Below the pieces are notes generated by a model, which was not told where the DNA came from, did not search any database, and was given only the letters and a program-made list of their open reading frames with translations. Below are positions 34,086 through 51,072 of a DNA stretch of 64,000 nt, piece by piece (positions within the stretch are counted from its first letter, which is position 1; each line of letters begins with the position of its first letter). The stretch spans positions 1,488,001 to 1,552,000 of the forward strand of contig NZ_CP041235.1 in assembly GCF_014905115.1 (NCBI RefSeq), written 5' to 3'. Made by a program: the position numbers and the translations under genes. The stretch comes from Sulfurimonas sediminis. Its GTDB lineage: Bacteria; Campylobacterota; Campylobacteria; Campylobacterales; Sulfurimonadaceae.

Positions 34086-35309
34086 ATGAAAAAAAGTGTT
34101 AAAAAAGTTGTTTTGGCATACTCTGGCGGACTTGATACCAGTGTTATACTCAAATGGCTGCAAGACGAATACAAATGCGAAGTTGTTACTTTTACAGCAG
34201 ATTTAGGACAAGGCGAAGAACTTGAACCTGCACGCGCAAAAGCACTTGAACTTGGCATCAAACCTGAGAATATTTTTATTGATGATTTACGCGAAGAGTT
34301 TGTAAGAGATTTTGTTTTCCCGATGTTTCGTGCCAATGCTATTTATGAGGGAGAATATCTTTTAGGGACATCCATTGCCCGTCCTTTGATTGCAAAACGT
34401 CAGGCAGAAATTGCAAAAATCACCGGTGCCGACGGTGTAGCTCATGGGGCAACAGGAAAAGGAAACGATCAGGTCCGTTTTGAAATGGGTTATTTAGGGC
34501 AAGATTCAACACTGACTATCATCGCTCCTTGGCGTGAATGGGACTTGAATTCTCGTGAAAAACTTTTGGCCTATGCGGCGGAGCATGGTATACAGATTGA
34601 GAAAAAAGGAAAAAAATCTCCTTACTCAATGGATGCCAACCTGCTGCATATCTCTTATGAAGGCGGGATTTTGGAAGACCCTGCAGCAGAACCGGAAGAG
34701 TCAATGTGGCTGTGGACAACTTCACCCCAAAAAGCACCAGATACTCCCGAATATATAGAAATCGAATACAAAAACGGTGACCCGATTGCACTCAACGGAG
34801 AAAAACTCTCACCGGCCACAATGCTACAGACACTCAACGAATATGGAAACAAACACGGAATTGGTCGTGTTGACATCGTTGAAAACCGTTTTGTCGGTAT
34901 GAAAGCCCGCGGATGTTATGAAACTCCGGGCGGAACAATTATGCTTAAAGCTCACAGAGCAATAGAATCCATCACCCTTGACCGTGAAGCAGCACACCTT
35001 AAAGATGAAATGATGCCTCGTTATGCAAAACTCATTTATAACGGTTTTTGGTTTGCACCTGAGCGTGAAATGCTTCAAGCTGCCATCGATCAAACACAAA
35101 AATGGGTAGAAGGCACAGTACGATTAAAACTCTACAAAGGAAATGTTACAGTTGTGGGAAGAAATTCTGATGTCTCCCTTTTCAACCCTGAATATTCCAC
35201 TTTTGAAGAAGATGAAGTTTACAATCAAAAAGATGCAGAAGGTTTTATAAAACTCAACGCATTACGTTTTATCATTGAAGGTAAAGCAAGAAACAAATTT
35301 AAAAAATAA
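34086..35309 (+). CDS. argG: Argininosuccinate synthase
   Basis: 407 residues. ArgG joins citrulline and aspartate using ATP. The PP-loop is in [28 protein letters not shown] and [17 protein letters not shown] fit the family. It follows flaG but has its own -10 box. Two more genes, the FTR-rhodanese fusion and rplI, follow on the same strand with short gaps of 15 and 20 bases, so they may share its transcript. Confidence 0.97.
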
Positions 35310-35324
35310 CTAAAGGAACGATAG

Positions 35325-36062
35325 ATGAGTATAATAAAAATTGATATGAATTCACCGGAATTTCAGGCGGAACTTGAAAAAACAATCAAATTTACAGACA
35401 AGGTCAATGCACAGTTCGGTTGGGTCTACAACCCGCAAGAAGAAGTGAACGAAGGCGTACAGATGGGCCTTGCACGAAACAAAATGATGTACAAAAAAAG
35501 ATTTTGTCCCTGTTTTATGGTTGAAGAAGTTGATGGAAAGCCAAGAAGTGTTGATGACAGAATCTGTCCTTGTAAACCTGCCATTGAAAAAGAGATTCCG
35601 GAGGGTGGAGTATGTCACTGTGGAATTTTCTGTACTCCTGAATTTGCTGAGAAAAAGCGTATTGAACTCGGTATGGAAGAGGCCGCACACAGTCACTCAA
35701 GAGGACTGACAAAAGAAGAGTGCGAAATACTTGTTAACAAAGACGAACTTGACGGAGATGAGCTTGTATCCCTTTTAGAAGCACGTGATCTTAAAATGGT
35801 TGATTTTAAGCTTGTAGATGTACGCGAGTACATGGAATGGCAGATGGGACACATTAAAGGTGCGGACAAACTGGTACCGACAAGTTCATTTTTTCAAACA
35901 TGGGAAGAAACAAACTACGGTAAAAATGAAAACATCATACTCTACTGCCATGTAGGAAGCCGTTCTGCGCATGTTGCAAGAATTCTTACAGACAACGGTT
36001 ATACAAAAATCGGAAACTTAACAAATGGTATTGTTGCCTATCCGGGTGAAATAGAAAGATAA
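35325..36062 (+). CDS. Ferredoxin:thioredoxin reductase catalytic domain fused to rhodanese
   Basis: 245 residues in two parts. Residues about 1-125 match the catalytic beta subunit of ferredoxin:thioredoxin reductase: CPC at 62-64, CPC near 83, and CHCGIFC near 97, which together hold the 4Fe-4S cluster and the redox disulfide. Residues about 150-245 are a rhodanese domain with the active-site loop CHVGSRS. FTR passes electrons from ferredoxin to thioredoxin-type disulfides; rhodanese moves sulfane sulfur. The fusion suggests ferredoxin-driven reduction of a persulfide or disulfide. No partner FTR alpha subunit is near, as in FTRs outside plants. Confidence 0.85.
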   Translation: MSIIKIDMNSPEFQAELEKTIKFTDKVNAQFGWVYNPQEEVNEGVQMGLARNKMMYKKRFCPCFMVEEVDGKPRSVDDRICPCKPAIEKEIPEGGVCHCGIFCTPEFAEKKRIELGMEEAAHSHSRGLTKEECEILVNKDELDGDELVSLLEARDLKMVDFKLVDVREYMEWQMGHIKGADKLVPTSSFFQTWEETNYGKNENIILYCHVGSRSAHVARILTDNGYTKIGNLTNGIVAYPGEIER

Positions 36063-36082: not shown

Positions 36083-36529
36083 ATGAAAGTATTATTAATT
36101 AAAGATGTAAAAAGTTTAGGAAAAGCCGGTGAAGTCAAAGAGGTCAAACCGGGTTATGGTCAAAACTTTTTAATTAAAAAAGGTTTTGCCAAACCTGCAA
36201 CACCTGAGATTATTGCTGAACATGAGGCAGAAATCAAAAGAAAAGAAGAAGAAGAAAAAGCTGAAATAGCAAGACTCAAACAGATTGCAGAAAAACTTGA
36301 TAAACTCGAAGTTATCATTACTAAAAAAGTAGGTAACAATGGTCATCTTTTCGGAGCTATAACCAAAGAAGAAGTTGCCAATGCACTCAAAGAACAGCAT
36401 AGCATAGAGATAGACAAAAAAGCTATTACCGACAAAGCCGTCATCAAAACAATCGGTGAGCATGACTTAGATTTAAAACTCGGCCATGGAATTCATGCAA
36501 AACTTCATGTCGATGTACAGGGAGAGTAA
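36083..36529 (+). CDS. rplI: 50S ribosomal protein bL9
   Basis: 148 residues. The N-terminal domain MKVLLIKDVKSLGKAGEVKEVKPGYGQNFLIKKG is the bL9 signature, followed by a long charged helix (about 45-75) and the C-terminal RNA-binding domain (GNNGHLFGAITKEEV). bL9 helps hold the reading frame. Seven bases separate it from hslV. Confidence 0.97.
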   Translation: MKVLLIKDVKSLGKAGEVKEVKPGYGQNFLIKKGFAKPATPEIIAEHEAEIKRKEEEEKAEIARLKQIAEKLDKLEVIITKKVGNNGHLFGAITKEEVANALKEQHSIEIDKKAITDKAVIKTIGEHDLDLKLGHGIHAKLHVDVQGE

Positions 36530-41680: not shown

Positions 41681-43216
41681 ATGAATACATCAACACAGCA
41701 CTCTTTTTCAAGTGTATTATCAATTAATCCATACAAAGAGACATACTTTAGTGGAATATCGAGTTTCATCACAGAAACAACAAGTCCAAAATTTTCAAAA
41801 GACCAGTTTGTAATTTCATATATCAGTACAAAAGAATTTATAAATGCCCAGATTGCAATCAGTAAAAATATTCCCGAGGAAGATCTGTTTGATGCTATCA
41901 GCAACAAAGCATATGATGAACTGGCCCTTGATCAGGCAGTTGAGTATAAAATTCGCTACATTGAGTCATTTGACACATTAGATGAAGAAAACAGATATTT
42001 TCATGTCTTTATTGTAGACCCTTTGGATATAACCAATACTTTTATAAAAATTGTTGAAAAAGTAAAATATATTGATGTCATTATTCCTTCGCCTCTTTTA
42101 ATCAAATCACTTTATACAAAAGAGCTCATCGACAGTAACGGTGTACACTGTTTTATATACATTCAGGAAAATGATGCATTTTTGACTATTTACGGCAACA
42201 AAGAATTTGTTTATACCAAATCTTTAAAATATTCTCTTGTAGAAATGCATGAGCGTTTTTGTGAACTGTATGGTGAAAGAATTGAATATAACGAATTTAT
42301 ACGCTTTTTTTCAAAAGAAAATCTTAAAGAAACTACAAGTGATTACAAAGAATTTTTTATTCGTCTTTATAAAGAATTGTTTGCAAACATCAATGATATT
42401 CTCACCTATGCAAAAAGAGCATTTGATATTGAAAAATTCGAACATGTATATATAGGAGCACAACTTCCGACTGTAACAAAACTTTATGAAATGCTGGAAG
42501 TTGAGTTAAATATAAAGTCAAGTGAATTTGAATTTGATTACGGTTTTGAGACTGAAAATGAATATGTTGATCAACTGCATGCACTTATGCATATTTACAC
42601 AACACTGCCAAAAGATGAAATATATGAATGTAATTTTACTGATTACAGACGACCGCCGAAATTCATCAAACGAGAAAGCGGCAAACTTATAATTTTAATA
42701 TTTGCCTCCTTTGCTCTTGCATTTGCATACCCTATAACATATTGGATACTCACGTATGCACAGACTCTGCAAGAAGATCTGCTCAAACAAGAATACAAAG
42801 AGATTCATAATATCAAAATAACCAGAGAGGCAACTATTAAAAACAGGAAAGCAGACAAAGAAAAATCATTGAAACTGCTTGCCAAAGAAAAAACAGAATA
42901 TTCTGAGAAAAAAAACACTCTTATGAAAATTCATGAAGTAAAAGTTGATTATCCTATGAAAGCAAAACTTTTAACAATGTTCACTAAAAACTTAAACAAG
43001 TATGGTGTAAAGATTGAAGAAGCAAAATATACAGAAGATAATAAAACAAAAATACTGACTTTTTATTTAGTTGCCAACAATGACAGAAAGATTACGCAAC
43101 TCGTTGAATATCTCACTAAGATTTATGAAGGAAAATACAAGTTTATCCTTGAAGAGATTGTCTTTGATGAAAAAACAAATAAATATTTCAGTGAATTAAA
43201 GGTGCGTATATTATGA
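41681..43216 (+). CDS. MshI-like (PilM/PilN-type) pilus assembly protein
   Basis: 511 residues. Residues 1-320 look like a cytoplasmic actin-like PilM/GspL domain. A membrane segment (about 338-358, LIILIFASFALAFAYPITYWIL) and a coiled coil (about 365-420) are followed by a small periplasmic ferredoxin-like domain, the layout of PilN. It is thus a fused PilM-PilN platform protein, as in MshI-type proteins. First of nine tightly packed genes; ATGA overlap with the next. Confidence 0.7.
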   Translation: MNTSTQHSFSSVLSINPYKETYFSGISSFITETTSPKFSKDQFVISYISTKEFINAQIAISKNIPEEDLFDAISNKAYDELALDQAVEYKIRYIESFDTLDEENRYFHVFIVDPLDITNTFIKIVEKVKYIDVIIPSPLLIKSLYTKELIDSNGVHCFIYIQENDAFLTIYGNKEFVYTKSLKYSLVEMHERFCELYGERIEYNEFIRFFSKENLKETTSDYKEFFIRLYKELFANINDILTYAKRAFDIEKFEHVYIGAQLPTVTKLYEMLEVELNIKSSEFEFDYGFETENEYVDQLHALMHIYTTLPKDEIYECNFTDYRRPPKFIKRESGKLIILIFASFALAFAYPITYWILTYAQTLQEDLLKQEYKEIHNIKITREATIKNRKADKEKSLKLLAKEKTEYSEKKNTLMKIHEVKVDYPMKAKLLTMFTKNLNKYGVKIEEAKYTEDNKTKILTFYLVANNDRKITQLVEYLTKIYEGKYKFILEEIVFDEKTNKYFSELKVRIL

Positions 43217-43845
43217 AAATAAATCTTGAAGACTATCTCCATAGAATAGATGCAGCTTTTAAAAACAAAACCCAAAAAGACATCTATATGACTTACCTTA
43301 TGGTTGTCGGTATCATTTTTGCCTTTGCATACCTTCTGTTCTGGGACAGTTCATTTGACAAATTCACACAGACAAGGGCCAGTGTACAAAATCTCCAGAC
43401 AAAGATAAATGCCGATAAAACATTTCTGCAGCATAACCCTGAAACGAAAATTCTACAGCTTGAAAAAGAAATTAGAAACATAAATAATGAAATAGTTGTC
43501 ATAAAAGACACAAACTCTTATATAAAAAGTAAAATTGAAACTATTTCATCTTTAATATATGATGAACGGGCATGGGGTGAATATCTTGATTCCATAGCAA
43601 CCAATGCACAAAAATACAATGTCAAACTGCTTACCCTGACAAATAAATATGCAAAAAATGAGAGTTCTTTTGGTCATATACTCGATATTACAATTGAATC
43701 AACTGCGAATTACAAAAACACCTTGAAGTTTATCAATTCGCTAGAGCAGAGTGAACTGGTCGTTGATATACACAACTTTGATATAAAAGCTGATCAAGCG
43801 CTGATTTCTGATTTAAATATATCTGTATGGGGGATTACATACTAA
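43213..43845 (+). CDS. MshJ/PilO-like pilus assembly protein
   Basis: 210 residues: short cytoplasmic start, one membrane segment (about 25-45), a coiled coil (about 55-100), and a periplasmic alpha/beta domain. This is the PilO/GspM layout. It would pair with the PilN-like part of the preceding protein to link the inner-membrane platform to the secretin. ATGA overlap upstream and TAATG overlap downstream. Confidence 0.7.
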   Translation: MKINLEDYLHRIDAAFKNKTQKDIYMTYLMVVGIIFAFAYLLFWDSSFDKFTQTRASVQNLQTKINADKTFLQHNPETKILQLEKEIRNINNEIVVIKDTNSYIKSKIETISSLIYDERAWGEYLDSIATNAQKYNVKLLTLTNKYAKNESSFGHILDITIESTANYKNTLKFINSLEQSELVVDIHNFDIKADQALISDLNISVWGITY

Positions 43846-44291
43846 TGAAAAAATTCTATTTGATTTTAATGCTCCTTCTGACATCGCAACTTTTTTCCAA
43901 CAATCTGGCATGGGTTGATGAGCAGATTGAAGCGATTAAACCACCAAGAATCGGAGTTTCTGAAAAAGAAATTTCAAGGATAAAAGATCCTTTTATTTTT
44001 TTACACAAGAAAAATGATTCAAAAAAACACAAAACAGGCAAAAAAACAGTATTTGGTGCACATGCAAACTACAAAAAAGTTACGCGACACAGTACTGTGC
44101 ATTTCAGGCTTGATGCCATCTTAAACAAATCAGCAATGATTAATGGAAAATGGTATAAACAGGGTAAATATATTTATGGTTATAAACTGGCTAAAGTTGG
44201 TAGAAATTCTGTTCTATTAGTTCGAAAAAATAAAAAACTTCTGCTTTCAACAAAAAGTAAAAGTAAAAAAATAAAAATCTATAATAAGTAG
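43845..44291 (+). CDS. MshK/PilP-like periplasmic protein
   Basis: 148 residues from the ATG at 43845 that overlaps the previous stop (TAATG). Signal peptide about 1-20. It has a basic middle and a C-terminal beta region (MINGKWYKQGKYIYGYKLAKVGRNSVLLVRKNKK), the pattern of MshK/GspC-type proteins that contact the secretin. The match rests on position and layout more than sequence. Confidence 0.6.
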   Translation: MKKFYLILMLLLTSQLFSNNLAWVDEQIEAIKPPRIGVSEKEISRIKDPFIFLHKKNDSKKHKTGKKTVFGAHANYKKVTRHSTVHFRLDAILNKSAMINGKWYKQGKYIYGYKLAKVGRNSVLLVRKNKKLLLSTKSKSKKIKIYNK

Positions 44292-44300
44292 GGATCTCAA

Positions 44301-45941
44301 ATGAAATTTATACAAACATCGGTTTATGCAACAATAATCACCGCGATGCTTTCAACAACTAGCTTTGCAGATTGTTCTTATGAACTTTTTAGTATCAGTT
44401 CTGCAAAAAATACTAAAATCATTGACTTTGTAGAACAATTGAGTGATGAATGTGGTTTCAGTATCATAGTAACAGATCCTCATGCTGAGAAATTCCTAAA
44501 AACAAAGCTGAATAAAACAAACTTAAAGAATTTAACGATTGATGAAGTGTTGGATATTATATTGACACAGCATAATCTTTCCTATACGCTTGACAACAAC
44601 CTTCTAAAAATATCTTATTTAACAACAAAAGTTTTTAACATAGACTATATACTCTCACAAAGAAAAAGCACAGGCAGTACAGATGTCACACTCAGTTCTT
44701 CTTCAAATGCACAACAACAGGGAGGAGGAGTTGGCGGTGGCGGCGGCAGATCTGCCAATTCTCAAAGAGGCGCCGGTGGGAACTCAGGAACCGGTGGAGG
44801 CAATTCTACATCAGATACAGGTGTGAAAATCGAAAGTTCTGATGAAGTTAAATTTTGGGAGCAACTCGATACAGAGTTTCAGAGTATTCTCAACCGTCCA
44901 AATGACATATACAAAGCAACACCTCCAATCATAAACAAAAATGCAGGGCTGATAACTGTAACAGCTACAGATAAACAGCTCAAGCGTTTTGAAAGTTATC
45001 TAAAAAAACTGCAGGACAAGGTAAAACTCCAGGTACTGATTGATGTACAACTGCTCTCCGTTACCATGAGTAAGGGAAAAACAACAGGTATAGACTGGAA
45101 ACAGCTGTATGCTTTGCAAAATGTCAAACTCTCTGCAAGTACAGCAAACTATAACAATATCGGTACGACAATACCTGCCAATGGAATTATTACAGATACT
45201 GCTGCGACAGGCGCGGGTGCATCACAACTTTTTACTATGAGTGCCGGTGGACAACTGACAGAAGTTATCAAATTTTTAAAAACACAGGGAGATGTTACTT
45301 CCATATCGAATCCGAAAGTTCTTACTTTAAACAACCAACCGGCACTTATTACAGCAGGGACAGAGTATTTTTATAAAATACTCTCATCAACCAACCAACA
45401 GGGAACAGGCGGCGGAGTTGCTGCTACAACCCAAACCGATTTGGTAAACTCTGTCTTTGCCGGTGTTCTTCTAACAATTACTCCGGAAATTTCTGACGAC
45501 AAAACAATTACTCTGAGAATAAACCCCTCTCTTTCAGAAACAACAACAGATATCTCCCAAACACCAAATACAGGAAGAGATATGCCGCCGGATTTAAACC
45601 GCCGTCAGCTCTCTTCTGTTGTAACAGTAAAAGACGGTAACAGAATTATTTTAGGCGGACTTATAAATTCCAAAAACACAAATAATTCAAATCAGGTTCC
45701 AATTTTAGGCAGTATTCCCTTCCTGGGTAATTTATTTAAACATGAAGAGATGGTAAAAACAGTTGAAGAACTTGTCATAATTATAGAACCGCATATTATC
45801 CATAAAGAAAAAGATTCAATCTCTTTAAGTGATTTAGGCTATGAGGGACTGAGCGATGAATTACTTACACTTGAAATGGCTTCAAAAAAGAAAAAAGAGA
45901 TAAAACTGAATCAAACTGATGATAGGGAAGAAGGTAAATAA
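44301..45941 (+). CDS. MshL/PilQ-like secretin
   Basis: 546 residues with a signal peptide. N-terminal STN/N0-type domain (about 30-110), then a Gly/Ser/Asn-rich linker (about 135-175), N1-like domain, and the secretin domain with GVLLTITPEISDDKTITLRINPSLSE and the VPILGSIPFLGNLF lip. Forms the outer-membrane channel for the pilus. No lipobox is seen. Confidence 0.9.
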   Translation: MKFIQTSVYATIITAMLSTTSFADCSYELFSISSAKNTKIIDFVEQLSDECGFSIIVTDPHAEKFLKTKLNKTNLKNLTIDEVLDIILTQHNLSYTLDNNLLKISYLTTKVFNIDYILSQRKSTGSTDVTLSSSSNAQQQGGGVGGGGGRSANSQRGAGGNSGTGGGNSTSDTGVKIESSDEVKFWEQLDTEFQSILNRPNDIYKATPPIINKNAGLITVTATDKQLKRFESYLKKLQDKVKLQVLIDVQLLSVTMSKGKTTGIDWKQLYALQNVKLSASTANYNNIGTTIPANGIITDTAATGAGASQLFTMSAGGQLTEVIKFLKTQGDVTSISNPKVLTLNNQPALITAGTEYFYKILSSTNQQGTGGGVAATTQTDLVNSVFAGVLLTITPEISDDKTITLRINPSLSETTTDISQTPNTGRDMPPDLNRRQLSSVVTVKDGNRIILGGLINSKNTNNSNQVPILGSIPFLGNLFKHEEMVKTVEELVIIIEPHIIHKEKDSISLSDLGYEGLSDELLTLEMASKKKKEIKLNQTDDREEGK

Positions 45942-45944
45942 TCT

Positions 45945-46751
45945 ATGGACAGTATCTTTGCAAAGTCAAAAAATGTTTTCTTAGATACAGTCAATGCCAA
46001 GGACTATATACAGTTAGACAGAGTTTCTACAATCTATAAATCCTTAAAAGACTCTATATCCAAACCATTGAAGATGGTCCTTCTTTTTGGAAAACCGGGA
46101 ACCGGAAAAAGTATGTTTCTGAGTAAACTCTATGATGATTTAGCGCAAGAGTGCGATATCTATCTTTATGAAACACCTATTTTAGATGAAACAGAATTTT
46201 ATAAAGTCCTCGCTCAGGATATTTTCAACATCCGATATAATGACACCTTAAACTTAACGCAGTTTATGAAAATTGTAAAAGAGAGAGCTGTTGAAAAGGC
46301 ACCAATTGTTTTGCTTGATGAAGCACAACTCTATTCTGAAGTTTTAATGGAAAAAATAAGACTTTTATCAGATACAAGATGTATTAAATTCGTTATAACT
46401 CTGCATAAAACAGAAAAAGAAGATCTCATCGCAAAAGAGCATTTTCAAACAAGAATCTGGGAAACTTTTGAACTTGAAAATGCATCAAAAGCAGAACTCA
46501 AGATTTATATACAAAAAAAACTTATGAAGGCAAACTGTTTTGATACAGCAAATATGTTTCACACCAAAACAGTAAACAATATTTACAAACTTACACAGGG
46601 AAATTACAGAGATACCAATAAACTGCTTTATACTCTTTTTGACATCTATCACACCTATGAACAGAGTAACCATTACCCCTTAAGTACCACACATATTCCA
46701 AACAAATTTGTTGAAATGGCTGCCATACACACAGGACTTATCAATGCTTAA
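45945..46751 (+). CDS. MshM/ExeA-like AAA ATPase
   Basis: 268 residues. Walker A is FGKPGTGKSMFLS and Walker B PIVLLDEAQLY; the sensor region ends FVITLHKTEKEDL. This is the ExeA family, which in type II secretion helps place the secretin through peptidoglycan. The usual peptidoglycan-binding domain of ExeA is absent, as in MshM. The next gene starts inside its last codons. Confidence 0.85.
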   Translation: MDSIFAKSKNVFLDTVNAKDYIQLDRVSTIYKSLKDSISKPLKMVLLFGKPGTGKSMFLSKLYDDLAQECDIYLYETPILDETEFYKVLAQDIFNIRYNDTLNLTQFMKIVKERAVEKAPIVLLDEAQLYSEVLMEKIRLLSDTRCIKFVITLHKTEKEDLIAKEHFQTRIWETFELENASKAELKIYIQKKLMKANCFDTANMFHTKTVNNIYKLTQGNYRDTNKLLYTLFDIYHTYEQSNHYPLSTTHIPNKFVEMAAIHTGLINA

Positions 46752-47541
46752 TATTCGTGATTTGGAAAAACGTTGGAAAATCTATAAAATAAAATCATTT
46801 TTACCTTACGTCATTGTCAGTATTGTTTTATTCGCGATTATTCCGGCTGTTTACTACTTTTATACAACCAACACTAAAGCTGTATCACAAAAAAAGCCTG
46901 CTACCGCAAAAAAAACAGTTCCAAAACCAATTCTTCCACCAAAAAACAAACCGGCAGCAGTAAAAGTCAAGCCGGTGAAAATACAGCCAAAACCAGCACA
47001 ACCTAAAACAGTTGTCACAGACAAAACAAAAGAGACATCTTTCCAAACACTCAAGCCATCAATGAATTTTATGAAAAACATTCAACACGAAGTGAGACAA
47101 CCACAATACAGATATAAACAGACAAAGCAAAAGCATTTCAAAGAAAGAAAAATTACAGAGGCTGTTCAAGATATCTCAGTCAAATTGCCTTCAATAAAAA
47201 AAGAGAAAAAAATCACTATCACTATCCAAAGAAAAGAGACCCAAAATGATATTTTTGAAATTATCAAGCGTTTTAAAAAGAACAAGAACCCTGCTTTGAG
47301 TCTTTTTGTTGCAAAAAAATATTATGAACTTGGAAACTACAAGCAGGCATATAATTATGCACTGATTACAAATCAGATCAATTCCAATATTGAGGCAAGC
47401 TGGATTGTTTTTGCAAAATCTCTTATGCAGCTTCACCAAAAAAACAAAGCAATCCATACACTGCAGGAATATATAAAAGTTTCACACTCAAGTAATGCCG
47501 AAATTCTCTTAAATGAAATCAAATCAGGAAAATTCAGATGA
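46744..47541 (+). CDS. MshN-like TPR protein
   Basis: 265 residues from the ATG at 46744; a frame start 12 codons upstream lies inside the ATPase gene. One membrane segment (about 18-38), then a Pro/Lys-rich linker (KKPATAKKTVPKPILPP) and C-terminal TPR-like helices (about 180-260, ALSLFVAKKYYELGNYKQAYNYAL). The layout fits MshN, thought to help assemble the pilus in the envelope. Confidence 0.7.
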   Translation: MLNIRDLEKRWKIYKIKSFLPYVIVSIVLFAIIPAVYYFYTTNTKAVSQKKPATAKKTVPKPILPPKNKPAAVKVKPVKIQPKPAQPKTVVTDKTKETSFQTLKPSMNFMKNIQHEVRQPQYRYKQTKQKHFKERKITEAVQDISVKLPSIKKEKKITITIQRKETQNDIFEIIKRFKKNKNPALSLFVAKKYYELGNYKQAYNYALITNQINSNIEASWIVFAKSLMQLHQKNKAIHTLQEYIKVSHSSNAEILLNEIKSGKFR

Positions 47542-48083
47542 AATTACTACTGCTAGTCATAGTTACATGTAACCTTTATGCCTATAATATAAAACAAAAT
47601 TTATTTACTTTATATCAAAATAAAAAATATGAAGAGGTCTGCACCATAGGTTTTAACAATTTTCAAAGATATAAAAAAGATGAAGAGTTTGTCAGTTTAT
47701 ATGCATTTGGCTGTTTACATTCAGACTATATAGACAGATTGTCAATACCGATAACAATGTTGAAATTTTCAAAAGAAGCTCGTGCAAACTCAGCCTATTT
47801 TGCAGTTATTATGATGCAAAAGAAACTTTTATACCATGCCCTTATCGATGGATATGAATTGTCCCAATATGTTTTACCCTCAACAGATTATATATTGTCA
47901 AAAGTCTTTGACTTATATGTACAACTGGGGAAACATAAACCCAGAACCTTTTATCTGTTCAATGATCCGACAGATAAAAAACTAAGCTATAAACTCTATA
48001 TTTCAAAAGATGAGAGAATAAGCAAGATGATTATTGAAGAATATTATGATACAATAATTTTAAAACGTCACATATACTGGTAG
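47538..48083 (+). CDS. Exported protein in the MSHA-type operon, unknown function
   Basis: 181 residues with a short signal peptide (KLLLLVIVTCNLYA). The rest is helical with repeated YxxK patterns (QNKKYEEVCTIGFNNFQRYKKDEEF), perhaps TPR-like. It is not part of the Vibrio MSHA set I know, so it may be a Campylobacterota addition. TTACATGTAA at 47563 lies in the signal peptide and encodes Thr-Cys-Asn; it is the only copy in the operon. Confidence 0.65.
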   Translation: MKLLLLVIVTCNLYAYNIKQNLFTLYQNKKYEEVCTIGFNNFQRYKKDEEFVSLYAFGCLHSDYIDRLSIPITMLKFSKEARANSAYFAVIMMQKKLLYHALIDGYELSQYVLPSTDYILSKVFDLYVQLGKHKPRTFYLFNDPTDKKLSYKLYISKDERISKMIIEEYYDTIILKRHIYW

Positions 48084-48091
48084 GAGTTATT

Positions 48092-49828
48092 GTGGATAGA
48101 ATAACAACTGATTTACTTGCCAACGGCTCAATTATGAAAGGCCAGGTTGACAGGCTTCTGGCAAAAGGAATTAGTGAAAATTTAATTCTCAGAGACATCA
48201 CACTTTCCGGCTTCATGACTATGGATCGTCTTATAAGATTTATTGTGCAACAAATAAGAGAAGGCGTTTATGACCTCTCTATTATAGACAATTATGATTA
48301 TATAGAAGAAAAAGCAGTCCTGCAAAGACTTGCAAAAGAGCTGAATCTTCTTTTTGTTGATCTTGATTCCATTGATATGGATTATAATCTTATTGAAAAA
48401 GCTCCTCTTAACCAACTTGAAAAACACAATGCTATTCCTGTCTCACAGGATGATCTGAGTGTTACTGTCGCTTTTAGTGATCCATTAAACATGGATGCGC
48501 AAGAAGCTGTCCAACGACTCTTTCCAAGAAAAGTTCTTAAAATTGCTTTGGCAACAAAAAAACAGATTGTCTCCTATCTTTATAAAATCAGTCTCAAAGA
48601 CAGTATTAAAGATCTGGTCAAAAAAATACGGGAAGAACTGAACTCTATCAGTTCTATTGAAGAGCAACAAGAAGCCTCCTCTATTTTACAACTCATAGAT
48701 GTTGTTTTAAAAACATGTATTAATGCACGGGCAAGTGATGTCCATATCGAACCTACTGAAAAAAACTGTGTGGTTCGTGGACGTGTTGACGGAAAACTCA
48801 CAGAAATGTTTATTTTCGAAAAAGACATCTATCCGCCTCTGGCATCAAGGCTCAAACTGCTTGCAAATTTGGATATAGCTGAAAAAAGAAAGCCGCAAGA
48901 TGGTCGTTTTTCTACTTTAGTTGGGGCAAGAGAGTATGATTTTCGTATATCGACACTGCCTATTCTTTATGGCGAATCAATTGTTATGCGTGTTTTAGAC
49001 AAACAAAAAGCGCTTGTAAAACTGGAAGATGCAGGAATGGACTCCAGCAGCTATCAAAAACTGCTCAAGGGGCTTAAAACTCCTTATGGAATTATTTTAG
49101 TTACCGGACCTACGGGAAGCGGTAAAACGACTACTTTATATGGTGCATTAAATGAGCTGAGAAATGTTGAAGACAAGGTTATTACTGTTGAAGACCCTGT
49201 AGAGTACAGAATGAATCTTATTCAACAGGTACAGGTAAATGCAAAAGTAGGTCTGAGTTTTGCCGATGCACTCAGGTCAATTTTAAGACAAGATCCAGAT
49301 AAAATCATGATTGGTGAAATTCGAGACCAGGAAACTCTCGAAATTGCCATAAAAGCAGCACTTACCGGACACATGGTCATCTCTACACTGCATACAAATG
49401 ATGCAATCAGTGCAATACCCAGAATGGCAGACATGGGAATAGAACACTACCTCATCAGTGGTGCACTTGTAGCCATTCAGGCACAAAGACTTGTACGAAA
49501 GATATGCAGACACTGTAAAACAGAAGACACACTTTCGGCATCCGTTTTGGAAGAGATAGACGGAGTTGTGCCCGAGGGGACAATCTTTTACAAAGGCAGA
49601 GGCTGTAAAGAGTGTTCAGATACAGGCTATATGGGAAGAGAAATGATTTGTGAAGTACTTAACATTTCAGAAGAACTCTCTTCTTTGATTGCCAAAGGTG
49701 CATCAAAAGAACAGATGCTTGAACAGGCAAAAAAAGAGGGATTTGTCGGACTCTTTCAAAATGGTATTCAAAAAGCAATTGACGGAATAACCAGCATAGA
49801 AGAGATATTAAAGGTAGCCAAGGGATGA
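48092..49828 (+). CDS. MshE/GspE-type pilus assembly ATPase
   Basis: 578 residues, GTG start behind AGGAG. The N-terminal ~100 residues have the hydrophobic pattern of a MshEN cyclic-di-GMP-binding domain (LILRDITLSGFMTMDRLIRFIVQQ) but without the RLG lead, so binding is uncertain. Walker A is GPTGSGKTTTLYGAL, Walker B near KIMIGEIRDQETLEIA, the Asp box EDPVEYR, and a four-Cys zinc site (CRHC ... CKEC). It powers pilus extension. No PilT-type retraction ATPase is in the window. Confidence 0.92.
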   Translation: MDRITTDLLANGSIMKGQVDRLLAKGISENLILRDITLSGFMTMDRLIRFIVQQIREGVYDLSIIDNYDYIEEKAVLQRLAKELNLLFVDLDSIDMDYNLIEKAPLNQLEKHNAIPVSQDDLSVTVAFSDPLNMDAQEAVQRLFPRKVLKIALATKKQIVSYLYKISLKDSIKDLVKKIREELNSISSIEEQQEASSILQLIDVVLKTCINARASDVHIEPTEKNCVVRGRVDGKLTEMFIFEKDIYPPLASRLKLLANLDIAEKRKPQDGRFSTLVGAREYDFRISTLPILYGESIVMRVLDKQKALVKLEDAGMDSSSYQKLLKGLKTPYGIILVTGPTGSGKTTTLYGALNELRNVEDKVITVEDPVEYRMNLIQQVQVNAKVGLSFADALRSILRQDPDKIMIGEIRDQETLEIAIKAALTGHMVISTLHTNDAISAIPRMADMGIEHYLISGALVAIQAQRLVRKICRHCKTEDTLSASVLEEIDGVVPEGTIFYKGRGCKECSDTGYMGREMICEVLNISEELSSLIAKGASKEQMLEQAKKEGFVGLFQNGIQKAIDGITSIEEILKVAKG

Positions 49829-51072
49829 AGTATTTTATAGCAACTGTTTTGACAAAAGGAAAAAAAGAGGAGATTGGACTCTATGCTGAAAACAAAAAAG
49901 AAGCAAACAGTTATGCCAAACTAAAATTTTCCGGTATCATCATCAAGGTTTCAGAAGCCCAGGAGCCTCTGGAAGTACAACTTAAAAGATTTAAAACAAA
50001 TTTTTTATCAAATATAAAAAAAAGAAAAATCAAACCTGATGCCCTTATTGCCACTATACGACAGCTGGCTGTTATGACAAATGCCGGTATTTCCATCCAT
50101 GACTCTCTGACAGAGATAGCAAATGCAACAACAGACGAAGCCCTTAAGAGTGTTTTTTCAAAAATTGCAGAAGATATTAATGCAGGACACTCCATTTCAT
50201 CTGCCATGCAAAACTTCCGGTATGAACTTGGAAACCTTACAATTGCGATGGTTGAACTCGGAGAAAAGACAGGTAATCTCGATGAAGCCTTATACTCTTT
50301 GGCAAATATGCTTGAAGAGATACGGGCCAATGTTGTAAAGTTTAAAAAAGCGATGGCTTATCCGAGAAATGTCATGATTGCCATGGCTATAGCGTTTACA
50401 GTTTTAATATCCTACGTTGTCCCTCAGTTCAAAGCTATATTTGAGGAACTTCATGCCGAACTGCCTCTGCCGACAGTTATTCTTTTGAAACTTGAATATA
50501 TTTTCAATAACTTCGGTCCCTATGTTTTAGCCGGATTAGCTGTAGCATTTCTGATATTCAAATATCTTATCAACAATTATGAACATATACGATACGGTTG
50601 GCATAAATTTTTACTGAGAGTGTATCTCATAAAAAATATTATTAAATTTGCAACTTTAAGTAGATTCACCCTTGTATTTTCTGAACTTATTCGAGCCGGA
50701 ATTCCTATAGCCGAAGCTCTTGATACCGCCACAGCAATGGTAGACAACCTTCCCCTCAAAAGAAAACTTCAATCAGTCATCAGCACTGTAGAAAAGGGAG
50801 GAACACTGAATAAAGGACTTGAAGAAACAGGACTTTTTGAAAATATGATTATTCAGATGATTCGTGCAGGAGAAGACAGTGGTACTCTTGATACAATGAT
50901 TAAAAAAGTTGCAGAATACTATAAGATGCGATTTGATGCGATTATTGACGGCTTAAGTGAAGCCATAGAACCTATTATGCTCCTGATAATAGCTTCTATG
51001 GTTATATTACTGGCACTTGGTATCTTCTTACCAATGTGGGATATGGGAAATGCGGTGCAGGGAAGAAGATAG
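49825..51072 (+). CDS. MshG/GspF-type inner-membrane platform protein
   Basis: 415 residues, ATG in overlap with the ATPase stop. Two GspF domains (about 75-200 and 275-400), three membrane segments, ending LALGIFLPMWDMGNAVQG. Both repeats show the family's ExTGxLDEAL / EDSGTLDTMIKK signature. The last 97 codons are part of a 618-bp sequence that is repeated after the insertion sequence, but this copy is complete. Confidence 0.93.
   Translation: MKYFIATVLTKGKKEEIGLYAENKKEANSYAKLKFSGIIIKVSEAQEPLEVQLKRFKTNFLSNIKKRKIKPDALIATIRQLAVMTNAGISIHDSLTEIANATTDEALKSVFSKIAEDINAGHSISSAMQNFRYELGNLTIAMVELGEKTGNLDEALYSLANMLEEIRANVVKFKKAMAYPRNVMIAMAIAFTVLISYVVPQFKAIFEELHAELPLPTVILLKLEYIFNNFGPYVLAGLAVAFLIFKYLINNYEHIRYGWHKFLLRVYLIKNIIKFATLSRFTLVFSELIRAGIPIAEALDTATAMVDNLPLKRKLQSVISTVEKGGTLNKGLEETGLFENMIIQMIRAGEDSGTLDTMIKKVAEYYKMRFDAIIDGLSEAIEPIMLLIIASMVILLALGIFLPMWDMGNAVQGRR

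Follow-up and report, generated by a model that had tools for sequence, protein, structure and literature searches.

The window analyzed here, a 64,000-nucleotide stretch of the Sulfurimonas sediminis genome (contig NZ_CP041235.1, positions 1,488,001 to 1,552,000), contains a gene that joins the catalytic domain of a ferredoxin:thioredoxin reductase (FTR) to a rhodanese domain (Table 1). In Pfam searches of the predicted protein, FeThRed_B scored 114 bits against a cut-off of 22 and Rhodanese scored 58.2 bits against a cut-off of 22.2, with no other family matching at E up to 1. Both domains stand above cut-off in one 245-residue open reading frame, as the sequence-only reading of this locus had claimed, and the fusion is confirmed as real and not the product of chance; the domain pair is detectable by automatic annotation. 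Elsewhere in the window, at 41681-51072, a series of same-strand genes resembles a type II secretion or pilus cluster by eye from the translations (secretin-like, GspE-like ATPase and GspF-like proteins).

Table 1. Features of the FTR-rhodanese fusion locus, in window positions.
Feature	Position	Strand	Remarks
argG	34086..35309	+	15 bases upstream of the fusion gene, same strand
FTR-rhodanese fusion gene	35325..36062	+	open frame, 245 aa; both Pfam domains above cut-off
FTR catalytic domain (FeThRed_B), residues 16-121	35370..35687	+	Pfam E 4e-33
First CPC: C61, C63	35505..35513	+	present in the protein; invariant in fusions
Second CPC: C81, C83	35565..35573	+	present in the protein; invariant in fusions
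CHC: C97, H98, C99	35613..35621	+	Cys invariant; H98 in 109/110 fusions
Extra Cys C103 (CHCGIFC)	35631..35633	+	in 108/110 fusions
Linker, residues 122-148, with near-invariant HSxGL (124-128)	35688..35768	+	from the fusion alignment
Rhodanese domain, residues 149-239	35769..36041	+	Pfam E 1.2e-15; fold match Z up to 15.8
Rhodanese active-site loop C208-H-V-G-S-R213-S214	35946..35966	+	six residues from Cys to Arg
rplI	36083..36529	+	20 bases downstream of the fusion gene; followed by hslV, hslU

An AlphaFold2 model of the fusion, built with 81 sequences, reached a mean pLDDT of 89.9 and a pTM of 0.61, indicating that each domain is well predicted but that their mutual placement is not; mean pLDDT in the linker region (residues 121-130) was 68. 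Foldseek matched the model to rhodaneses and to structures of FTR and ferredoxin:disulfide reductase (FDR), among them 1dj7, 7c3f, 7c2b, and 7pwe, and a second structure comparison gave rhodaneses only among the best 50 matches listed, the best with a Z of 15.8, and so bears on the rhodanese half alone.

The FTR half carries the complete cysteine set of its family. By homology with the plant and cyanobacterial enzyme, we take C61, C81, C83, and C97 to be the cluster ligands and C63 and C99 to form the redox disulfide. These six cysteines and C208 of the rhodanese half were invariant in all 110 rows of a fusion alignment (109 of them distinct) that comprised the window protein, 80 of 196 confirmed contig loci, and 29 FeThRed_B matches from the phylum sample; the stand-alone locus L030 was excluded, and an organism may recur in the set as a genome of our sample and as a named contig. 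The sequence-only reading had reported these seven cysteines as intact and had named variation of the Fe-S ligands as grounds for abandoning it; the ligands did not vary in any row. The extra cysteine, C103, was also present in 31/31 FTRs from split pairs, tandem arrangements, and stand-alone genes, and is therefore not peculiar to the fusion.

The fusion gene is the single FeThRed_B match in its own genome. The FTR variable subunit (PF02941) was not found in that genome by a search that did give a match in the control Synechococcus. The genome contains six rhodanese matches, 11 thioredoxin-family matches, and a thioredoxin reductase above cut-off, with the best thioredoxin match 0.5 kb away. 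The lack of a variable subunit, together with a thioredoxin reductase gene close to a thioredoxin gene, suggests that the fusion is free for another job. FeThRed_B was found in two of 14 control genomes, Synechococcus and Methanosarcina. A selenoprotein form was considered for four listed FTR matches with TGA codons (G238, G347, G387, and G219) and rejected: all four FTRs have six cysteines and no stop inside the aligned FTR, so that TGA is most simply the end of the gene.

The rhodanese half has an active-site loop whose six-residue spacing from Cys to Arg is, as a rule, the sulfurtransferase length, and C208, G211, S212, R213, and S214 were invariant in 110/110 fusion rows. The residue after C208 was His in 102 rows, Leu in five, and Tyr in three, and in the set used for trees it was His, Leu, Tyr, or Phe in 56/56 fusion rows (50 loci, six rows being second copies from the same loci). 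In contrast, Arg directly follows the catalytic cysteine in 8/8 rhodaneses of split pairs and in 3/3 stand-alone rhodaneses. The fused rhodaneses thus depart from the canonical CRxGxR loop at a position where Arg is linked to how thiosulfate and other anionic donors are bound, and without it sulfurtransferase activity may be weak or changed. Because all fused rhodaneses group together in the tree, the Arg may have been lost only once. Stand-alone rhodaneses from this subfamily whose loop reads CRTGNRT occur near the fusion in L201 (4551-4871) and L021 (about 960), and at L177 a distant rhodanese gene (1429-1863) and a stand-alone FTR lie about 6 kb apart.

The surroundings of the fusion gene are a housekeeping setting. 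Across the window's family it lies among argG, rplI, hslV, and hslU, with no sulfur genes there. At 66 of the 80 loci examined (of 196 confirmed), argG lies at most 200 bases upstream and rplI at most 200 bases downstream on the same strand. The other 14 include loci that differ only by a longer called start (L037, L047, and L101), loci whose start is too near the contig end for argG (L054, L082, and L088), loci with no rplI match (L046, L051, and L057), loci where rplI (L079 and L092) or argG (L097) is farther away, and two Sulfurovum loci with neither gene (L110 and L111). Two loci of family f8 (L174 and L183) keep the order argG, fusion, rplI, hslU with one opposite-strand gene between.

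The survey of domain architectures that the sequence-only reading had called for found the fusion to be widespread in Campylobacterota. In the window's family, 140/151 genomes carry it as a full-length match without inner stops (116/117 of the good genomes), and ten of the 11 genomes lacking it are assemblies less than 90% complete, G399 being the exception; the reading's own counter-prediction, separate genes in all close relatives, is thereby ruled out. FeThRed_B was present in 164/397 genomes of the phylum sample and the fusion in 142/397, spread over families f1, f4, f5, f7, f8, f9, f10, and f11. The 142 are what remains of 161 matching genomes after removal of 16 whose best match was taken, by E-value, to be an FTR alone and three with inner stops; G364, counted among the 16, has an adjacent FTR and rhodanese pair, and G061, G224, and G371 have a FeThRed_B match yet are absent from the 161. 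Families f2 and f3 had no fusion in the phylum sample. Judging by where named loci are placed in the trees, f1 appears to be Sulfurimonas-like and f4 Sulfurovum-like. None of the titles of the 80 loci names another phylum, and two say only "bacterium". The plasmid collection gave 11 matching records, one of them, in Sulfurovum, across the FTR part, and viral contigs gave no confirmed match. One genome of the window's genus carries two complete fusion copies in tandem (G327:C51:73337-74811).

The host had been called a likely sulfur oxidizer from the DNA alone, and two results agree: the window protein is 95% identical to a protein of a Sulfurimonas metagenome-assembled genome (MAG), and the window's own genome is among the 91 of 397 with soxB above cut-off. 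The suggested tie between the fusion and sulfur oxidation fared less evenly. On one side, 79 of the 91 soxB genomes carry the fusion and 89 carry some FTR, and the two traits are associated over the 397 genomes (Fisher odds ratio 25, p 6e-31, kinship ignored). On the other side, soxB is missing from 63 of the 142 fusion genomes, no sulfur genes neighbor the fusion in the window's family, family membership confounds the association, and families f2 and f3, with neither the fusion nor soxB above cut-off, inflate it. Among fusion genomes, soxB was found in 32/39 of f7, 33/52 of f1, 10/21 of f4, 2/15 of f10, and 0/7 of f5, indicating that the fusion is neither confined to nor dependent on Sox. We therefore reject sulfur oxidation as a necessary or defining trait of fusion carriers. 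The reverse citric acid cycle is likewise not supported as a necessary trait: the ATP-citrate lyase marker PF16114 was above cut-off in 122/397 genomes, the window's own included, but strong matches (E <1e-30, counted by eye) were found in only 3/15 fusion genomes of f10 and 5/39 of f7.

FTR and rhodanese also occur as adjoining, separate genes on the same strand at eight loci. One is on a Sulfurovum mangrovi plasmid, where separate FTR and rhodanese genes are annotated in that order, and seven are in f4 genomes (L165-L169, L194, and L195); G264, G225, and G219 have a split pair plus a fusion. Some FTR genes were recovered by tblastn, beyond ORF calling. Among six split-pair loci with long flanks, genes for a DapE-like protein and a histidine kinase lie downstream in 6/6, an Fe-S and an NrfD (polysulfide-reductase-type) subunit downstream in 5/6, a molybdopterin subunit in 4/6 (the S. 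mangrovi stretch ends before that point), and a thioredoxin-like gene in 4/6; none of the genes beside the pair scored above the cut-off of an NCBIfam model. The pair stands upstream of this conserved DapE-like/histidine kinase run in L165-L169 and L112, mostly with Fe-S, NrfD, and molybdopterin subunits, and soxB lies 9 to 26 kb away in G264, G204, and G225. A further 17 rows are stand-alone FTRs of the same family without an adjoining rhodanese; identity of stand-alone FTRs to the FTR domain of the window protein reaches ~82%. At L173, L201-L204 (f5), and L190 (f9), a stand-alone FTR directly precedes an FTR-rhodanese fusion, placing two FTRs side by side; at L173 it overlaps the fusion by 14 bases.

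Quick trees (SH-aLRT support only, 107-113 columns, weakly resolved, and without the rhodanese rows of the six tandem arrangements in which a second FTR precedes the fusion) gave different pictures for the two halves. In the rhodanese tree, the eight pair rows cluster together (support 96) and lie outside the set of 56 fused rows (support 89), which suggests one fusion of neighboring genes. In the FTR tree, whose resolution is weak, stand-alone, pair, and tandem FTRs are interspersed with the fused ones, and a single fusion origin is not seen; the fused FTR halves take two positions, with starred branches that force at least two changes, so that either some lines lost the rhodanese, two fusions occurred, or the tree is in error. 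The simplest history on the rhodanese side would be that an old neighboring pair fused, with the Sulfurovum line retaining or duplicating the pair. Gene fission, rhodanese losses, and two fusions are alternative histories compatible with these trees.

We tentatively propose that the fusion reduces persulfides (sulfane sulfur) with electrons from ferredoxin, as an iron-sulfur counterpart of NADH-dependent persulfide reductase (Npsr); this may well be its role, though we stop short of calling it probable. In this scheme C208 would accept sulfane sulfur from a persulfide, either of a small molecule or of a protein, and the persulfide so formed would be brought over the conserved linker to the redox pair C63/C99 of the FTR half. 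Attack by an FTR thiol would then release H2S or pass the sulfur on, leaving a disulfide that the [4Fe-4S] cluster (C61, C81, C83, and C97) would reduce with single electrons from reduced ferredoxin. Cluster-mediated single-electron reduction of a disulfide by reduced ferredoxin is established for FTR. The ferredoxin-driven persulfide reduction suggested by the sequence-only reading is plausible. Two intact active sites lie on one chain and are conserved jointly, and they are found as neighboring genes in some relatives; the adjoining same-strand genes may be read as a second sign that both act together. Several observations speak against the proposal: the placement of the domains is not confidently predicted in the model (pTM 0.61), the gene lies outside a sulfur operon in the window's family, many fusion genomes lack soxB (63/142) and FTRs of the same family stand alone, the usual Arg after the rhodanese cysteine is absent, and the neighbors of the split pairs match no named sulfur enzyme at NCBIfam cut-offs. 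A more specific version, possible but doubtful in our judgment, is that free-living Campylobacterota have here an enzyme of a new type, a persulfide reductase driven by ferredoxin through an iron-sulfur cluster, that arose by early fusion of two neighboring genes and whose rhodanese was retuned by loss of the Arg from thiosulfate-like anions to internal or neutral persulfides.

An unlikely competitor holds that the protein is mainly a ferredoxin-dependent reductase of thioredoxin, or of another small dithiol protein, and that the rhodanese is a tethered, separate sulfurtransferase that does no more than share the polypeptide or draw on thioredoxin once it is reduced. In its favor, the FTR domain is whole and structurally matched by FTR and FDR entries, the genome has 11 thioredoxin-family matches, stand-alone FTRs are close relatives at up to ~82% identity, and 4/6 split pairs have a thioredoxin-like gene nearby; yet a thioredoxin reductase gene already sits beside a thioredoxin gene, the variable subunit is absent, and the joint upkeep of both domains, with the adjoining pairs, argues for a shared reaction. 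It is less likely still that the fusion serves biosynthetic sulfur delivery (thiolation of tRNA, cofactors, or Fe-S clusters), with the rhodanese handing persulfide sulfur to an acceptor while the FTR half resets disulfides. MoeZ/MoeB-type sulfurtransferases do appear among the rhodanese profile matches, all below cut-offs, and both the housekeeping position between argG and rplI and the occurrence in soxB-poor groups (soxB in 0/7 f5 and 2/15 f10 fusion genomes) fit such a role. However, no sulfur acceptor gene is a constant neighbor at the loci inspected, and families f2 and f3 lack the fusion; if these are Campylobacter- and Helicobacter-like, as we guess, they need such cofactors too. A noncatalytic rhodanese that serves in docking or regulation, as in plant TROL, where a rhodanese-like domain docks FNR, would suit the lack of the Arg after the catalytic cysteine in all fusions examined but is improbable, because nothing would keep the cysteine in a domain used purely for docking, whereas C208, with G211, S212, R213, and S214, is invariant in 110/110.

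If the fusion is a persulfide reductase, it would tie the ferredoxin electron pool directly to intracellular sulfane sulfur, could explain how the cells handle persulfides made by sulfide and thiosulfate metabolism, and would place FTR in a function remote from photosynthesis and perhaps also from thioredoxin. Most of its named hosts are of the Sulfurimonas or Sulfurovum type, bacteria that are dominant in many sulfidic vents and sediments and whose carbon fixation depends on low-potential ferredoxin.

Balsera and colleagues (2013) reportedly treated FTR catalytic subunits in deep-branching chemoautotrophs and their structural diversification. The window protein shares with the catalytic subunit of plants and cyanobacteria the FeThRed_B domain with six cysteines and the Foldseek matches 1dj7, 7c3f, and 7c2b, and it differs in having no variable subunit encoded in its genome and in having a fused rhodanese and the extra Cys 103. 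The FDR fusions 4tpu (listed as rubredoxin and presumably from Methanosarcina) and 7pwe (glutaredoxin/FDR of Desulfotalea) also join an FTR-type domain to a second module, but here the partner is a C-terminal rhodanese, and the Pfam search detected no rubredoxin or glutaredoxin domain. The best NCBIfam profile for the FTR half, the FtrB family double-selenoprotein (NF041072, E 8.4e-16), reached 57.9 bits against a cut-off of 160, and the window protein has Cys at these sites as well as a rhodanese. A persulfide dioxygenase-rhodanese fusion (5ve3) likewise combines a sulfur enzyme with a rhodanese, although the catalytic domain there is a dioxygenase and none is common to both. Among the titles and opening parts of abstracts listed by full-text searches of an open-access library, no paper treated an FTR-rhodanese fusion, and the passages that discuss selenoprotein FTR and the FTR/FDR classes in three papers do not mention one (PMC2398784, PMC7278568, PMC9312934).

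Npsr and CoADR-RHD enzymes (3icr, 3nta, and 6pfz) resemble the fusion in combining a disulfide reductase with a C-terminal rhodanese that has a conserved cysteine; their rhodaneses matched the model with Z 12.0-14.2, and other rhodaneses matched better, up to 15.8. In passages of its description, Npsr uses FAD, NADH, and bound CoA, the cysteine of its C-terminal rhodanese is the initial sulfur acceptor, and its substrates are persulfide and polysulfide (PMC7969121). The fusion is not itself an Npsr, since the FAD pyridine-nucleotide disulfide reductase domain was not found in the Pfam search (E up to 1); in its place stand the [4Fe-4S] FTR domain and, by implication, ferredoxin. Npsr would nevertheless be the closest working model, and we hypothesize that the fusion works like it, with reducing power supplied through an iron-sulfur cluster.
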